Of a stretch of DNA of 33,104 bases, positions 7,502-16,703 are shown piece by piece; position 1 is the first letter of the stretch; each line of letters starts with the position of its first letter. The translations under genes and the position numbers were made by a program. Origin of the DNA: an uncultured Candidatus Saccharibacteria bacterium (lineage in GTDB: Bacteria; Patescibacteriota; Saccharimonadia; Saccharimonadales; Saccharimonadaceae); NCBI GenBank assembly GCA_947304155.1, contig CAMZAD010000006.1, positions 1-33,104 of the forward strand, given 5' to 3'. Under the pieces are notes generated by a model. That model did not search any database. It worked only from the letters and a program-made list of their open reading frames with translations, and was not told the origin of the DNA.

Positions 7502-10297
7502 TTATCGCAGTTTTATGACGTCGCCGTCTTTCATCTCGTTCGGCTCACGTTTTTCTGGCTGTTTTTCAGCTTTTTTAGGCTCAGCTTGTTCTAGCATCTC
7601 GACAGACACCTCTGGGTCAGCTGCTGGTACTTCTGGATCAGCTACTGGCGTCTCTGAAACACTCTTCCTCTTCTCTTGGGTATTTGCCCATTTATCAAGA
7701 AAACTCTTTCTCTGTGGTTTCTGCGCCGCTGGGGCATTCATCGCCTCTTCAATCCCCTTCTCAGCCTGAACTTCGCCAGCTTCTCTCATCTCTGGGATTT
7801 CTGGCATTGCTGGCGCCTCTGGAGCGACTGGTTTCGGCTTTACCGACATTCTCTCATTAATCTCTCTTTCCACCTCTGCAATTGGACGACCATACTTAGT
7901 TGCAGAATAATTCTTGAGTGATTCAAGTACAGATTGATTCTCTTCTCCCATCGGAGGTAGCAAGTTCATCGTAAATGGCGCAGTTGGCATACCATACATC
8001 ATCACCGTAGCAATAGCGTGGTAATTTGGTTGCTTATGCAAATCCTCTGCCTTAAAGGTTGGAGTGAAGACTTTTTCAAGCATTTCCGCATCTGTTACAC
8101 CGATACGACCAGCGATAATTGTGCCAACGTTACCAAGCACACCTTCCCTAATCTTATCTGTAAGCTGTGTCATAAACTGGTTTGCAACAAACAGATTCAA
8201 GCGGAATTTACGGGCTTCAGATAGAATCGATTCGAAGCTCTCTGTTGAGAAGTTCTGGAACTCATCCACAAAGAGACAGAAATCTTTACGTTCGTTCTCT
8301 GGAATATTCACACGGCTCATCGCTGCAGCCTGGAACTTCATCACGAAAATCATACCGAGCAACTTTGAGTTCATCTCACCAAGTTTACCTTTAGAGAGGT
8401 TAACCAGGAGAATCTTCTGTTGATCCATCACGTCACGGATATTAAAACCAGAATGAATCTGACCAAGCACACATTTCATCATACGGTTTGCGATGAATGG
8501 TGACCACTTAGAGTTGAACCATGTCACAACCTCACCAGCGTCATTAGATTTCTGAGATGCTGGGAACTCTTTTGTCCAGTAATCATAGACGTTCTTATCT
8601 GTTACATATTTCAATTTCTCTTTTACAAACTCTGGGTCAATGAAACATTTTGGCACATCAATAAAGGTTGCACCCGCTGGGTCAGACATCAAGAGTAATG
8701 CTGCATTCCTAAACATCTGCTCACCTCTTGGGCCAAAGATACCAGTATGTCCTGGGTCGTACAGAGAGTAAAGCATGTTAATACCCTCTTGCACGATAAA
8801 GTCCTTCTGGTCCTCTGCTGTCCACTCGAACATATTCATACCAATAGGATTGGTTAAATCACTTGGATCAAAGTAAATTACATCGTCAATTCTCTCTGGT
8901 GGAACCATCGACAAAAGTTCTTCCGTCACATCACCGTGCGGATCGATAAAGGCGAAGCCACGACCATCCATCATATCTTGATAAGCCACATTCTTAAGGA
9001 ATACGGATTTACCCATACCAGTAGCACCAATTACATATGTATGGCGACGACGGTCATTTTGGGACAACCTGATTTCCTTCTTCACGCCTCTATATTCATT
9101 TACACCAAGAATCACACCCTCTGTTGCCAAGCGTGCTGGACCATCAACTTGTTTAGTTTGTTGTCTCTCAACACCAGATGTTGGAATTGATGACTGTGAT
9201 GGCAAGTGGAAAATTGACGCGAGTTCAACCGTATTTAGTACACATTTTTTGTTCGAAACTGGAAAATTATGAAAGATGTAATCTGTTGATAGCTGTTCAC
9301 TATTTTTAAGCATATTGTATTTGAAGCCATTGAAAGTAGTCGAATCAAACTGAGAGAATGCTGCTACAACGCCAGCTACTAATGCTTCCGACCTCTGTTT
9401 GTTAGTTGATGAGGCTACTACACGAATCAAGGTCTCAAATCCAGGATATTTAGTCTTATTCTCTATTGCATTAATTTCTTCTTGCTTTGGTTGAGACAAA
9501 GGTTTTTGCTCTTCCTTTTTTTCGTCATATTTGTGTTCATCCGGAACTTCAAATGGCGCTTTAATAACGTCAATAAATAAATTTAGTATTCGAGATGGGA
9601 GATTCGAACCGCTAGATTTTTTCTTTCCATCCTTAATTCCGGAAATAATTTGTTCAGCTTCGTCAGTCCATTCTGATGATGCTGGGCGGAACAACATTTG
9701 AATGCCGATACCTTCACCTTCTTTTGCCTTTGAAAGCGCATTCAAGATTGCTGTCTGAGCATCCCATTTTGCATCTTCATAGGTTAAGATTGGATATGCG
9801 CTCTCTTTCTTGAGCTCAAATTCACCACCAGCAATCATATCTGATGTAACACCATCACTAAAGATAATTTCCTGTTCAGCTCTCTCTAGACGAGCCGTAG
9901 GATAAGATGAGGTGATTGCCTGTTTTACAGTCTCTTCAAGCACCGCTGGAACCAAGGCATAATACTTTACAAAGCCATCTTTTACCAAGATATCGAATGA
10001 AAAATACCTCTGTCCATACATCTTAGTATTCATATTCTTCTTCTTAGCAGTAGAAGCCAAGATGGAATACATCACTGTTGCAGCTGAGATTGCCTCATTA
10101 TAAACATCACGTTCATCCCTACCACCTTTCTCAATATCATCTACCTCTGGTGGAAGATAAATCAAAAGTGGAACCAGCTTGAGCTGTCTCTCATAAGATT
10201 TCTTTTCCTTCTTATGATTAATATTTTTAACAATAAGCGCAATCACCACTAAAAATAAGACAATTGACGCTGCTAAAATTACCACCCAACCCGGCAT
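7502..10297 (-). CDS. Type IV secretion/conjugation-like ATPase (VirD4/TraG/DUF87 type), membrane anchored
   Basis: A 931-residue hexameric-ATPase-type protein. An N-terminal transmembrane helix (about 4-24) is followed by a roughly 380-residue region without a motif I recognise, then a RecA-like domain: Walker A GATGMGKS (424-431), IDPHGD (451-456), Walker B CLFVDEF (674-680) and a downstream VANQFMTQL helix as in TraD/VirD4 and HerA/DUF87 proteins. The last 100 residues are Pro/Ala/Glu-rich and end basic, resembling a flexible docking tail. Such ATPases drive DNA or protein through membrane channels; what this one moves is unknown. The ATG overlaps the upstream stop (TAATG) behind SD GGGAGG, so translation is coupled. 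The cluster could be a secretion or DNA-uptake machine. Confidence 0.8.
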   Translation of the reverse strand: MPGWVVILAASIVLFLVVIALIVKNINHKKEKKSYERQLKLVPLLIYLPPEVDDIEKGGRDERDVYNEAISAATVMYSILASTAKKKNMNTKMYGQRYFSFDILVKDGFVKYYALVPAVLEETVKQAITSSYPTARLERAEQEIIFSDGVTSDMIAGGEFELKKESAYPILTYEDAKWDAQTAILNALSKAKEGEGIGIQMLFRPASSEWTDEAEQIISGIKDGKKKSSGSNLPSRILNLFIDVIKAPFEVPDEHKYDEKKEEQKPLSQPKQEEINAIENKTKYPGFETLIRVVASSTNKQRSEALVAGVVAAFSQFDSTTFNGFKYNMLKNSEQLSTDYIFHNFPVSNKKCVLNTVELASIFHLPSQSSIPTSGVERQQTKQVDGPARLATEGVILGVNEYRGVKKEIRLSQNDRRRHTYVIGATGMGKSVFLKNVAYQDMMDGRGFAFIDPHGDVTEELLSMVPPERIDDVIYFDPSDLTNPIGMNMFEWTAEDQKDFIVQEGINMLYSLYDPGHTGIFGPRGEQMFRNAALLLMSDPAGATFIDVPKCFIDPEFVKEKLKYVTDKNVYDYWTKEFPASQKSNDAGEVVTWFNSKWSPFIANRMMKCVLGQIHSGFNIRDVMDQQKILLVNLSKGKLGEMNSKLLGMIFVMKFQAAAMSRVNIPENERKDFCLFVDEFQNFSTESFESILSEARKFRLNLFVANQFMTQLTDKIREGVLGNVGTIIAGRIGVTDAEMLEKVFTPTFKAEDLHKQPNYHAIATVMMYGMPTAPFTMNLLPPMGEENQSVLESLKNYSATKYGRPIAEVEREINERMSVKPKPVAPEAPAMPEIPEMREAGEVQAEKGIEEAMNAPAAQKPQRKSFLDKWANTQEKRKSVSETPVADPEVPAADPEVSVEMLEQAEPKKAEKQPEKREPNEMKDGDVIKLR

Positions 10298-10719: not shown

Positions 10720-10728
10720 ATTTTATCA
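10720..10728 (-). promoter_or_regulatory. Extended -10 promoter overlapping the upstream stop codon
   Basis: TGA (10726-10728) followed by TAAAAT (10720-10725), then AAGCAT and the ATG at 10713. The TGA is also the stop codon of the preceding gene. No convincing -35. Confidence 0.55.
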
Positions 10729-11076
10729 CACTTTCTTTATTAAAAACATATCAAGTGCCACAAAAATCGTTGATCCAACTACCGAAACCAACATATTTGA
10801 CACACCCGCTGACGTAAAGAATAGAATCATTACTGGCCAGAATGCCAAAACCGCCGCATAGGCATATTCCTTCCAATCCGCCTCTATTTTACGATACACC
10901 ACCTTCATAAATGCTCTGATAATCGTAGCCATCACGCCAAGCATCGTAATATAAACCGTCACAAAAAACACCAAAATTCCCACCGGGCCTAAGCTCGCTG
11001 GGTTAGTAAAGAAAAGCATCGACACGAGGACGATTGCTGATACCATCGATATAAGCAGAAAAACATGGCTTAGCAT
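10726..11076 (-). CDS. Four-helix membrane protein of the VirD4-like cluster
   Basis: 116 residues with hydrophobic segments at about 3-23, 32-55, 70-88 and 92-112, joined by a basic loop (KVVYRKIEADWKEY). No family recognised; the size resembles small pilin- or VirB2/TrbC-like or channel subunits, but helix number does not match VirB2. First gene of the cluster. It ends in TGA, which shows UGA is a stop in this genome. The start ATG lies seven bases after a TATAAT box, so the message is predicted leaderless. Confidence 0.7.
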   Translation of the reverse strand: MLSHVFLLISMVSAIVLVSMLFFTNPASLGPVGILVFFVTVYITMLGVMATIIRAFMKVVYRKIEADWKEYAYAAVLAFWPVMILFFTSAGVSNMLVSVVGSTIFVALDMFLIKKV

Positions 11077-11082
11077 GCTTCT

Positions 11083-11091
11083 ATTATACCA
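11083..11091 (-). promoter_or_regulatory. Extended -10 promoter of the VirD4-like cluster
   Basis: TGG (11089-11091) plus TATAAT (11083-11088), then AGAAGC and ATG; the predicted start site is the A of the ATG. Confidence 0.65.
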
Positions 11092-11180: not shown

Positions 11181-11389
11181 TGTCTAATGCTGTTTACTCC
11201 CAAAATCTATTAGATTTTCAAGACTAATCCCAGCAATATTGCAGGATTCCCCCGTTTTGTTCCCCCTTATTTTAATAGTCCTACAGTGTAGGTTTGGATT
11301 TTAAACTCAAATATTGATGCTTTCACATCTTTATTTGACATATTTTTAACCTGGATTCATTGATTCCTCCATGTTTATTTTTTATTCTA

Positions 11390-11787
11390 ACCCAGACAGT
11401 TCAATCTGTTCTGGGCTAAAGACGGGGGGTCATCCGGTTCCAAAAAAATTACTATTAACCGCGACCCTCACCGTCTAAAGCTTTTGACCGCTCCTCGTAT
11501 AGAGGGGCATCTGTCCTTGTTATTCCCCTTCTTATTCTAATTATTTAAAAGGTGCTAATAAGAAGCTTCGTAACGCGCTCAAACGCTCAGTTTGATATTT
11601 CTATCAAACGCTTTAGCGGAGCTTTAGGTAACTCCTATTTGTAATTTATGGCTAGAAATTACCTACCAGCTCGCCAAACTTTCATTCTCACCCGCTCGCG
11701 CAGGATTTCGATCCCCCATCGTTCACTCCAGTTTGGTTCTGACGTGACTAATTGTTAATGTGTGCGTTTTTATTTTTGTCTTTCGAC
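11390..11787 (-). ncRNA. Large, highly structured RNA of unassigned family
   Basis: No open frame of note, yet the minus strand is dense with perfect stems. A GAAA-capped hairpin GTC-GAAA-GAC lies at the very 5' end (11778-11787). A CCAAACT/AGTTTGG stem (11674-11680 with 11730-11736) encloses a GGAT-CGAA-ATCC and a GCGA-capped hairpin. Further on come TAGGTAA/TTACCTA (11625-11631 with 11659-11665), an 8-bp GAAA-capped hairpin (11590-11609), a 9-bp CTTCTTATT/AATAAGAAG stem (11528-11536 with 11557-11565), a composite GACGG-GGGTC-CGGTT hairpin closed by 11421-11425 with 11471-11475, and a final CCCAG-ACAG hairpin (11391-11415). GNRA loops suggest tertiary packing. It is not tmRNA, RNase P, SRP or rRNA. 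The 3' end is uncertain because no U-run follows. I do not recognise the family. Confidence 0.7.
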
Positions 11788-11793
11788 ATTCTC

Positions 11794-11822
11794 ATAGTAG
11801 CATAAGCGTTTATTATATGCAA
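11794..11822 (-). promoter_or_regulatory. Promoter of the large structured RNA
   Basis: Minus strand TTGCAT (11817-11822), 17-bp spacer ending in TGC, TACTAT (11794-11799). The predicted start, about 11787, is the first base of the 5' GAAA hairpin. A second TATAAT lies at 11812-11817. Confidence 0.65.
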
Positions 11823-12334
11823 TGGTTTTGTACAACAATTTTAATGTATTTTTTACAACACCAATATCACCGCCCCTGTTATACCTACATTTTAACTGTT
11901 GTATTATTTACAACGTTTTAAGCAATTTTGTATAATTTTCTTTCCTTTTACCACACATTGCAGCCACCCGCCGCACATTGATCCGCCACATTTTTTAGTA
12001 TTTTTGTATAAAAATATTTTCATACTTTCACACACCTTCATGTCATTTTTATGTCGTATTTCGTATTTCATTATGTTGCCACGTTTTTGTTTTTTAAATA
12101 TCCCACGTTTTTGCATGTCGCGTTTTCGCGTTCGTTTTTAATATTTACTTTCCTGCCACACGCTTTTATTAAAGTCGCAAAAAAATAATAAAAATGTGGA
12201 ACGCGTGACGACCATTTTTCATTATTCCAAAAGCCATATTTCAAAACTCGTTTTTCATTTTTCTAAATATGGCATAAAAAATTCAATAACATTTACGTTC
12301 CGTTTTTTATAAAAATATCAACTTCAAAAGCCAC
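11823..12334. other. AT-rich, strand-asymmetric intergenic stretch
   Basis: About 510 bases, pyrimidine-rich on the plus strand and hence poor in stop codons on both strands in some frames; overlapping 70-80 codon frames here are probably an effect of composition. It contains short repeats: TGTATTTTTTACAAC (11845-11859) and the dyad GTTGTA-TTATT-TACAAC (11898-11914), both related to the comM-region repeat, and two copies of CCACGTTTTTG near 12080-12115. No RNA or protein gene is convincing. Confidence 0.4.
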
Positions 12335-12682: not shown

Positions 12683-13045
12683 TGGTGGAGCTGCCGGATA
12701 CTGCCTCCGGGTCCGAAAAATCTTCATAATATCATTCTACACGCATAGTTTTCTGTTTTTGATCTCGGCTTAAATTTCTAAGCTGCAGAAAACGAAACTC
12801 AGAATCGCCATGACATAAGTCTTAACAACCTTCCAGTCACAAAAGGAAGTCTAGCACTATGAATATAATAATCCTAAAAGCTTATAATGCGTCAGCTAAG
12901 GACCAGCCTATAAAATAATTAAATTAGGCATAAACAGGTGCAAAAAGCACATGTTTTGAAGTTTTTTCTTCATTTATTCAATACTTACGGTATCAATCGT
13001 CGTGCTTGATATCTGTTAATAATCCGTCTAAGCTTTGTCAGCCCC
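12683..13045 (-). ncRNA. ssrA: Transfer-messenger RNA (tmRNA)
   Basis: 363 nt. tmRNA rescues stalled ribosomes with SmpB and tags the nascent chain. The 5' end GGGGCTGACAAAGCTTAGACGG pairs through GGGGCTG with the 3' CAGCTCC-ACCA; the third pair is G-U, the alanine identity element. CCA is encoded. The stem TATCAA/TTGATA near 12983-13014 could be part of pseudoknot PK1. The tag frame follows (12924-12974). The T-arm is CCGGA-GGCAGTA-TCCGG: the stem is intact, but the usual T-loop TTCRANY is replaced by GGCAGTA. It is one-piece, since 5' and 3' parts are collinear. A consensus promoter precedes it and a terminator follows. Confidence 0.93.
12924..12974 (-). other. tmRNA proteolysis-tag reading frame
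   Basis: Within tmRNA, the frame after the first pseudoknot region reads NEEKTSKHVLFAPVYA and then TAA. The length and the small hydrophobic end (YA) fit tag peptides recognised by ClpXP-like proteases. The exact resume codon is inferred: the frame is open from just after a TGA, and AAT or the preceding ATA are alternatives. The other two frames give tags with unlikely ends. Confidence 0.65.
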
Positions 13046-16355: not shown

Positions 16356-16360
16356 ATATT

Positions 16361-16697
16361 AAGCTCTCAGTAAGCCGGGTTTTGTTTCCCTGTCGGGACA
16401 GGGGGACAATCATCTATCTAGCCTTGATATTGCTACCAAGTTCGAGCGGTGAACGTGCATCGCCGGACAAGCGTACGTAGCACTCCTTGCAGCGAGTAGG
16501 GTTTGCCTCCGTAATCTGTCGCCAGACTACACTGTGAGCTCTTACCTCACTCTTTTCACCTTTACCAGCAAGCTGGCAGTATTGTCTCTGTGGTACTTTC
16601 CCTATTCTTGCGAACGGTCGCCGTTAGCGACTACTCTGTCCTGTGCTGCCCGGACTTTCCTCTTGAACTAATGCCCAAGCGATTGTCTTTCAAGCTT
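16361..16697 (-). ncRNA. rnpB: RNase P RNA (bacterial type A)
   Basis: The catalytic RNA that trims tRNA and tmRNA 5' ends. On the minus strand the conserved core is clear: GAGGAAAGTCCGGGC (P4/CR-I), CAGAGTAGTCGC, GGGAAAGTACCACAGAGA, GGTAAAGGTGAAAAGAGTGAGGTAAGAGCTCAC, GGAGGCAAACCC and, near the 3' end, ACAAAACCCGGCTTA. P1 is formed by AAGCTT at 16692-16697 and GAGCTT at 16361-16366. The predicted start from the upstream box is exactly 16697, the first P1 base, so no 5' trimming is needed. Confidence 0.96.
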
Positions 16698-16703
16698 CTT
16701 GAG

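Follow-up and report, generated by a model that had tools for sequence, protein, structure and literature searches.

The window, i.e., the whole stretch of 33,104 nucleotides that was analysed, forms a single contig (G000:C6) in a genome of 0.77 Mb. Its named relatives are uncultured Candidatus Saccharibacteria, most of which come from ruminant guts. On the minus strand between 11800 and 11380 no gene-length open reading frame was found, in agreement with the initial annotation, and the region folds with a minimum free energy of −130.9 kcal/mol, compared to −98.0 ± 6.0 kcal/mol for dinucleotide shuffles (z = −5.5), none of which equalled it in 100 trials. Together with covariance model matches, this folding energy marks an RNA gene at 11391–11787 on the minus strand. 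Its ends were placed by means of the promoter and the last hairpin, and the predicted transcript probably runs from about 11787 to 11391, as proposed earlier. We are highly confident that these positions hold a real noncoding RNA gene.

A promoter of the form TTGCAT-17-TGC-TACTAT had also been proposed, and it is present on the minus strand at 11822–11794. The −35 element TTGCAT (11817–11822) is separated by a 17-nt spacer from the extended −10 element TGC-TACTAT (11794–11802), and relatives carry a better version at the same position. In the window itself, the promoter is degenerate and was missed by a strict consensus scan. Further upstream, two tandem palindromes, TTGTATTATTTACAA at 11899–11913 and a second one at 11845–11858, represent possible operators to which no strand is assigned. 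Such palindromes (TTGTAN5TACAA, 55–60 nt apart) occur just 5′ of the RNA promoter in 23 of 30 genus loci (L001–L030), compared to 2.2 in shuffles, and in 19 of 73 loci of the compact form described below, compared to 3.4 in shuffles. They are likely operator sites.

The structural parts are given here from 5′ to 3′ along the minus strand. The transcript is predicted to begin with hairpin HP1 (GUCGAAAGAC, 11778–11787), followed by an A-rich stretch; a 5′ hairpin stands in the same place throughout the order, where its loop is A-rich and AAAAACAAAAA-like. Another hairpin (AUCCUGCGCGAGCGGGU, 11690–11706) is specific to the sublineage, being common only to the window and L003 and altered in L002. 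Strand A (11669–11679) can pair over about 10 bp with strand B (11612–11622) in 133 relatives, and hairpin P2 (11627–11663) lies between the two strands. The near-invariant P2 loop GCCAUAAAUUACA is kept while the stem changes from GGUAAUU to AGCUUAUU. In line with partner-shuffle and contingency tests, strand B may be common to two alternative helices, A:B and B:C, with strand C (11577–11587) as its candidate partner in the alternative fold. A hairpin at 11590–11609 sits in the segment that separates B from C, an insertion of variable length that is missing in short relatives and exceeds 100 nt in others. Helix P4 (11570–11576 with 11515–11524) surrounds P5 (11557–11565 with 11528–11536), which has the conserved loop UUAGCACCUU; columns of this element (11515–11576) exceed 20/20 tree-preserving nulls. 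Hairpin P6 (GAC..GCCCCUC..GAGGAGCGGUC, 11486–11515) shows covariation and contains the order-wide motif GAGCGGUCA. P8 (11471–11482 with 11415–11425) surrounds P7 (11427–11467), and this element (11415–11482) covaries in both the genus and the order. P7 has the conserved internal loop G/GAU and the loop AAUAGUAA. A 3′ hairpin (CCCAGAACAG..CUGUCUGGG, 11391–11415), recognized from its sequence, completes the predicted gene.

The composite stem previously noted at 11421–11475 is real and corresponds to P8/P7, which is among the best-conserved parts of the RNA and is backed by covariation. The emphasis that the initial annotation placed on GNRA loops has to be given up, as they do not form the conserved core: most relatives have GAGAU in place of the GAAA loop of HP1, the GCGA hairpin is limited to the window's sublineage (L001, L003), and the CGAA loop is not a GNRA loop. 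A candidate pseudoknot, in which the P2 loop (AAAUUAC) would pair with GUAAU of the P7 loop, was seen by eye in several sequences; the P2 loop never varies.

Conservation in the genus and across the order

By blastn, 33 of 60 relatives carry the element, every one of them from the window's genus. The aligned homologues have in common the promoter, the 5′ hairpin, P2 with its near-invariant loop CCAUAAAUUACA, P4/P5 with the loop UUAGYACMUU, P6, and P8 around P7. For 21 genus sequences, RNAalifold yielded 47 pairs, and double changes are seen in 24 of them. Covariation was further assessed by a tree-aware, R-scape-like test of our own making, i.e., a G-test with APC and a null in which the substitutions of each branch are relocated on a FastTree tree. 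When applied to an alignment of 100 genus sequences, 13 pairs, each of them predominantly Watson–Crick and located in P4, P5, P6, or P7, exceeded 20/20 null alignments. The P2 pair 26:109 gave E = 0.15.

Three covariance models were used to follow the RNA further. R1 was built from the 21 genus sequences and matched 41 of 43 sampled genus genomes, later 60 of 62, as well as, more weakly, other genera of the window's family. R2 was derived from a MAFFT alignment across genera in which only 6 base pairs were retained, and its weak matches (E 0.01–0.05) were therefore not counted on their own. R3 comprised 15 sequences from outside the window's family and one distant family member, and the window's genus contributed none. 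Most other families of the order Saccharimonadales carry a compact form of approximately 150–260 nt, which consists of a 5′ hairpin with the A-rich loop, a variable hairpin, P6 ending in GAGCGGUCAGUC, and P7/P8 with AAGCGC...GCGGAUUU. The P6 sequence GAGCGGTCAGTC was found in 68 of 73 compact loci.

R3 matched 169 of 295 genomes of the order, in nearly every family and with E-values down to 2e-20. It also detected the window locus (E = 4.8e-4) without any sequence from the window's genus in the model, so two separately built models, R1 and R3, converge on one locus. The matches there span 11405–11683 for R1, 11410–11516 for R2, and 11415–11509 for R3. With the 59 R1 matches from the window's family and the 157 R3 matches elsewhere in the order, at least 216 of the 295 genomes are positive. 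G319, a genome from another order of the same class, gave a clear R3 match (E = 4e-6). Among approximately 260 genomes from the rest of the phylum beyond the class, just two weak matches were obtained, and these are not claimed.

An alignment of 78 order-wide sequences was fitted to the model, and 62 of the 78 were not among the model sequences. In this alignment 93% of the cells pair, compared to 27–47% for slid versions, and 17 of 19 pairs show double changes, compared to 7.5 after shuffling. Five P7/P8 pairs are significant order-wide in the tree-aware test. Covariation, which had been named in advance as a check on this RNA, is thus strong at both levels. Of 73 compact copies, 72 have a TTGAC-type promoter in front, compared to 10 when the sequence is reversed, and a U-rich stretch follows P8 in 39 of the 73. 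The results show an independently transcribed noncoding RNA gene that is orthologous across the order Saccharimonadales, and its identity as a new, lineage-wide RNA class is near certain. The initial annotation had suggested a housekeeping-level RNA of this lineage; this is supported, and the range is wider than expected, extending to essentially the whole order.

Two observations concern individual assemblies. G221 (C5, C17) and G375 (C17, C50) each contain two strong RNA copies on separate contigs, reflecting either duplication or a mixed bin. L199 (JAITNW010000008.1), from a record titled Candidatus Nomurabacteria, has the Saccharibacteria-family form of the RNA and is probably a misnamed or mixed MAG.

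Conservation at the DNA level, for example because the region belongs to a replication origin close to gyrB and its RNA fold is incidental, would fit an AT-rich block with palindromes close to gyrB/gyrA and the switch in gene direction at comM. However, the compensatory changes include G-U pairs and fall in defined helices, the promoter is strand-specific, and lineage-specific insertions occur at loops. We regard this explanation as barely credible.

Known RNAs and the neighbouring genes

Rfam 15 (4,227 families, including OLE, raiA, ROOL, GOLLD, HEARO, and T-large) gave no above-chance match to window positions 11370–11830 at E ≤ 5 or even E ≤ 10, and homologues from the genus, family, and order gave only tmRNA or chance-level matches. 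The earlier view that no known RNA family is involved therefore stands for both the window and its homologues. Among openly accessible papers, none was found to describe the RNA. We consider it very probable that neither Rfam nor the open literature covers it.

If the RNA were a divergent version of a universal RNA already known (SRP RNA, 6S RNA, tmRNA, or RNase P), an order-wide distribution such as the present one would be expected, and SRP RNA was not found elsewhere. The SRP RNA models RF00169 and RF01854 have no match in the genus, and the SRP core pattern is missing from the genome. The M domain of Ffh (PF02978) was detected in 0 of 10 genomes of the order (G000–G005, G036–G039), compared to 14 of 14 positive controls. 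SRP RNA was rejected on the basis of these models, the motif pattern, and the Ffh result. Judged from these genomes, the order seems to lack SRP, and SRP subunits are reported to be missing in many CPR (PMC8080830). The 6S model RF00013 likewise has no match in the genus, and the hairpin layout is unlike paired ends with a central bubble; 6S RNA was rejected. Both tmRNA and RNase P are separate genes present beside the RNA, which has neither a tRNA-like domain nor a tag frame, and they were rejected as its identity. The three or four separate hairpins resemble neither 6S nor SRP RNA, and G037 has a separate 6S-like match 4.4 kb from the RNA. A diverged universal RNA is thus very improbable.

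The match in G037 (G037:C51:16563-16716, L334) is sub-threshold, with 32.4 bits and E = 2.7e-5, and is possibly a saccharibacterial 6S RNA beyond the coverage of Rfam. A phage origin of the RNA was also considered and rejected, as the core motif was not found in 2.9 million viral contigs.

Rfam matches elsewhere in the window are tmRNA (12683–13045), RNase P (16356–16698), and the start of 16S. The RNA had been placed in one noncoding block with two other RNA genes. This is correct for tmRNA; RNase P lies 3.3 kb further, beyond comM and infC. Across families the gene order is rnpB ... rplT, infC, comM (opposite strand), tmRNA, the RNA, a 108–132 aa membrane protein, a protein of approximately 140 aa, a large TraG/TrwB-like ATPase, and gyrB. 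In the window, positions 7502–10297 (minus strand) encode a 931-aa protein with weak matches to TraG/TrwB-like ATPases of the type IV secretion type, which is conserved downstream in the order.

The constant downstream neighbour is a 116-aa membrane protein (10726–11076, minus strand) with four predicted helices, of which the second and third are connected by a loop with basic residues. It matched no family in Pfam or NCBIfam, and its AlphaFold single-sequence model has low confidence (pLDDT 67, pTM 0.35). The protein is present in 25 of 25 Saccharimonadia genomes of the phylum sample. In all 11 sampled genomes with both R3 and protein matches, its gene follows the RNA on the same strand at a distance of 29–339 nt; the gap reaches approximately 550 nt in G056. 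In G319 the pair is retained although it is flanked by trpS and pheST. Relatives of the protein were also found in approximately 54 other Patescibacteria without R3-detectable RNA. At three loci, L315 (G321, same class), L319 (G496), and L331 (G520), a promoter, an A-rich stretch, and a U-tailed hairpin precede the protein gene. This arrangement may represent the RNA in diverged form and is only a lead.

The membrane-protein gene has its own −10 box, TATAAT (11083–11088, minus strand), located 6 nt before the ATG at 11076. A −10 box 4–9 nt 5′ of the start codon was found in 105 of 108 loci, compared to 12% at random positions; since up to 25 in-frame starts were scanned, the first figure is somewhat generous, and most matches are at the first start. 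Leaderless transcription of this gene appears to be fixed across the order. The gene is apparently transcribed from its own promoter without a leader, and therefore the RNA is probably not its 5′ UTR. A related possibility is that the RNA serves the membrane-protein/ATPase operon as a 5′ leader, i.e., a riboswitch or attenuator, in which P7/P8 would be the regulated terminator. The constant upstream, same-strand position of the RNA would suit such a role, as would the U-rich stretch behind P8 and the tiny leader ORF in the genus (see below). The predicted leaderless transcript and the wide gap in G056 argue against it, and leader terminator stems rarely keep their loop sequence across an order. 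We consider a 5′ leader quite unlikely.

The expanded form in the window's family

In the window's family the RNA has a length of approximately 390 nt, with about 200 nt inserted between the 5′ hairpin and P6. Within this insertion, strand B can pair with either the upstream strand A (~10 bp) or the downstream strand C (~8 bp), and these helices are mutually exclusive. In a partner-shuffle test, A:B (133 relatives) scored 22.2 with its own partner, compared to 19.8 for shuffled partners (maximum 20.4), and B:C scored 15.96, compared to 15.45 (maximum 15.75). Neither helix is significant under the tree-aware null, so a switch is a hypothesis here.

A tiny basic ORF of 4–13 codons, with an AUG led by a Shine–Dalgarno sequence, occurs in 82 of 117 genus-like loci, compared to 6.4 in shuffles. 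It lies between the 5′ hairpin and strand A (L004–L027, many of L083–L200) and encodes lysine-rich products such as MKYK and MKKKRFKARNKP, each followed directly by the stop, which often comes after K-P or K-T. The stop is placed just 5′ of strand A, at the identical nucleotide in 48 of the 82 loci. The window's own sublineage lacks the ORF, and so does genus g32. In leader-peptide attenuators of the TnaC/trp type, a tiny ORF stands just before competing helices and proline is often its last codon. The arrangement here is similar in that the tiny ORF lies directly 5′ of candidate competing helices and often ends in proline. It differs in that the candidate switch helices are not statistically proven and a regulated gene on the same transcript is putative at most.

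These features may suggest a trans-acting regulatory RNA that would bind a protein or mRNAs and be induced via the tandem TTGTAN5TACAA sites, with translation of the tiny ORF acting as a switch for the form found in the window's family. Its own promoter with the tandem palindromes upstream, the two exclusive pairings with scores above those of shuffled partners, the fixed distance between the ORF stop and strand A, and the single-stranded A-rich loop are all consistent with such a role. On the other hand, the conserved parts are paired or internal-loop motifs and not a seed, the switch is not significant in the tree-aware test, and the ORF is missing outside the genus. A regulatory RNA of this kind is conceivable, and we rate it as rather doubtful.

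A resemblance to tmRNA is limited to the adjacency of the tmRNA gene and the small reading frame inside the RNA in the genus. The bona fide tmRNA is separate, the RNA lacks a tRNA-like domain, and the ORF, which has its own Shine–Dalgarno sequence and AUG, is conserved only within the genus. A further possibility is a ribozyme or a ribosome-associated RNA, such as a ribosome rescue or hibernation factor, given the location beside tmRNA and infC/rplT, the Shine–Dalgarno-led ORF in most of the genus, and the near-invariant internal loops. However, the RNA is unlike known Rfam ribozyme families, the ORF is not conserved, and the neighbours simply reflect conserved gene order. This explanation is improbable.

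Possible function and significance

The commonest gene immediately downstream of ole is oapA, whose four-helix product OapA binds OLE RNA (PMC12265935). The arrangement of the Saccharibacteria RNA and its membrane protein recalls this pair, and for this reason a membrane ribonucleoprotein is preferred as the mechanism. As in Bacillota, an orphan structured RNA is directly followed by a gene for a small four-helix membrane protein, and the pair stays together; this is a resemblance and not homology. In contrast, OLE is approximately 600 nt long and found in Bacillota, and the Saccharibacteria RNA has no Rfam match to it. The saccharibacterial membrane protein has its own leaderless promoter and no detectable Pfam/NCBIfam relation.

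Under the preferred mechanism, the RNA would be trans-acting and would provide a small ribonucleoprotein with its structural RNA. This particle would be held at the cell membrane, or act on it, via the adjacent four-helix protein of approximately 120 aa, as OLE RNA does with OapA. Protein binding or tertiary contacts may take place at the invariant P6 tail and the internal loop of P7, to which the P2 loop would be added in the window's family. In most relatives within this family, a ribosome terminating on the tiny ORF might bias the fold towards A:B or B:C. The membrane ribonucleoprotein is a tentative proposal by analogy with OLE/OapA, in which binding, membrane location, and function are all inferred, and it stands well below even odds. 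As a whole, the best explanation, i.e., identity and mechanism together, has a probability of roughly 40%.

Several findings weigh against this mechanism. The adjacency could be inherited gene order, as most of the order has retained the rnpB-rplT-infC-comM-tmRNA-RNA-4TM-ATPase-gyrB block. Members of the protein family are also present in the approximately 54 other Patescibacteria without an R3 match, and contact between the RNA and the protein is inferred only. The switch step is further weakened by the tree-aware result for A:B/B:C and by the absence of the ORF in the window's sublineage and g32. A broader version would make the membrane ribonucleoprotein universal to Saccharibacteria, possibly diverged in other protein-keeping Patescibacteria, as an OLE-like machine that evolved independently in epibionts that lost SRP; this version is unlikely.

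The RNA is new as a family. As a kind, i.e., an orphan structured RNA whose function is to be found, it has precedents in OLE and raiA. The raiA-motif RNA (ModT) of Bacillota and others is a widespread structured bacterial RNA of unresolved function (PMC11706538). The Saccharibacteria RNA is similarly a widely conserved structured bacterial RNA; it differs in lineage and neighbours and has no Rfam match to raiA at the thresholds used.

Some Saccharibacteria have been cultured with their hosts, so expression, essentiality, and partners of the RNA are directly testable. Order-wide bacterial RNAs are few, namely rRNA, tRNA, RNase P, tmRNA, SRP RNA, and sometimes 6S RNA. The present RNA adds one more, in host-dependent epibionts with genomes below approximately 1.6 Mb that keep little beyond need. 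A whole bacterial lineage thus seems to keep an RNA that nobody has studied. Should this RNA and its membrane-protein neighbour indeed act together, they would represent a second, independent bacterial membrane ribonucleoprotein.
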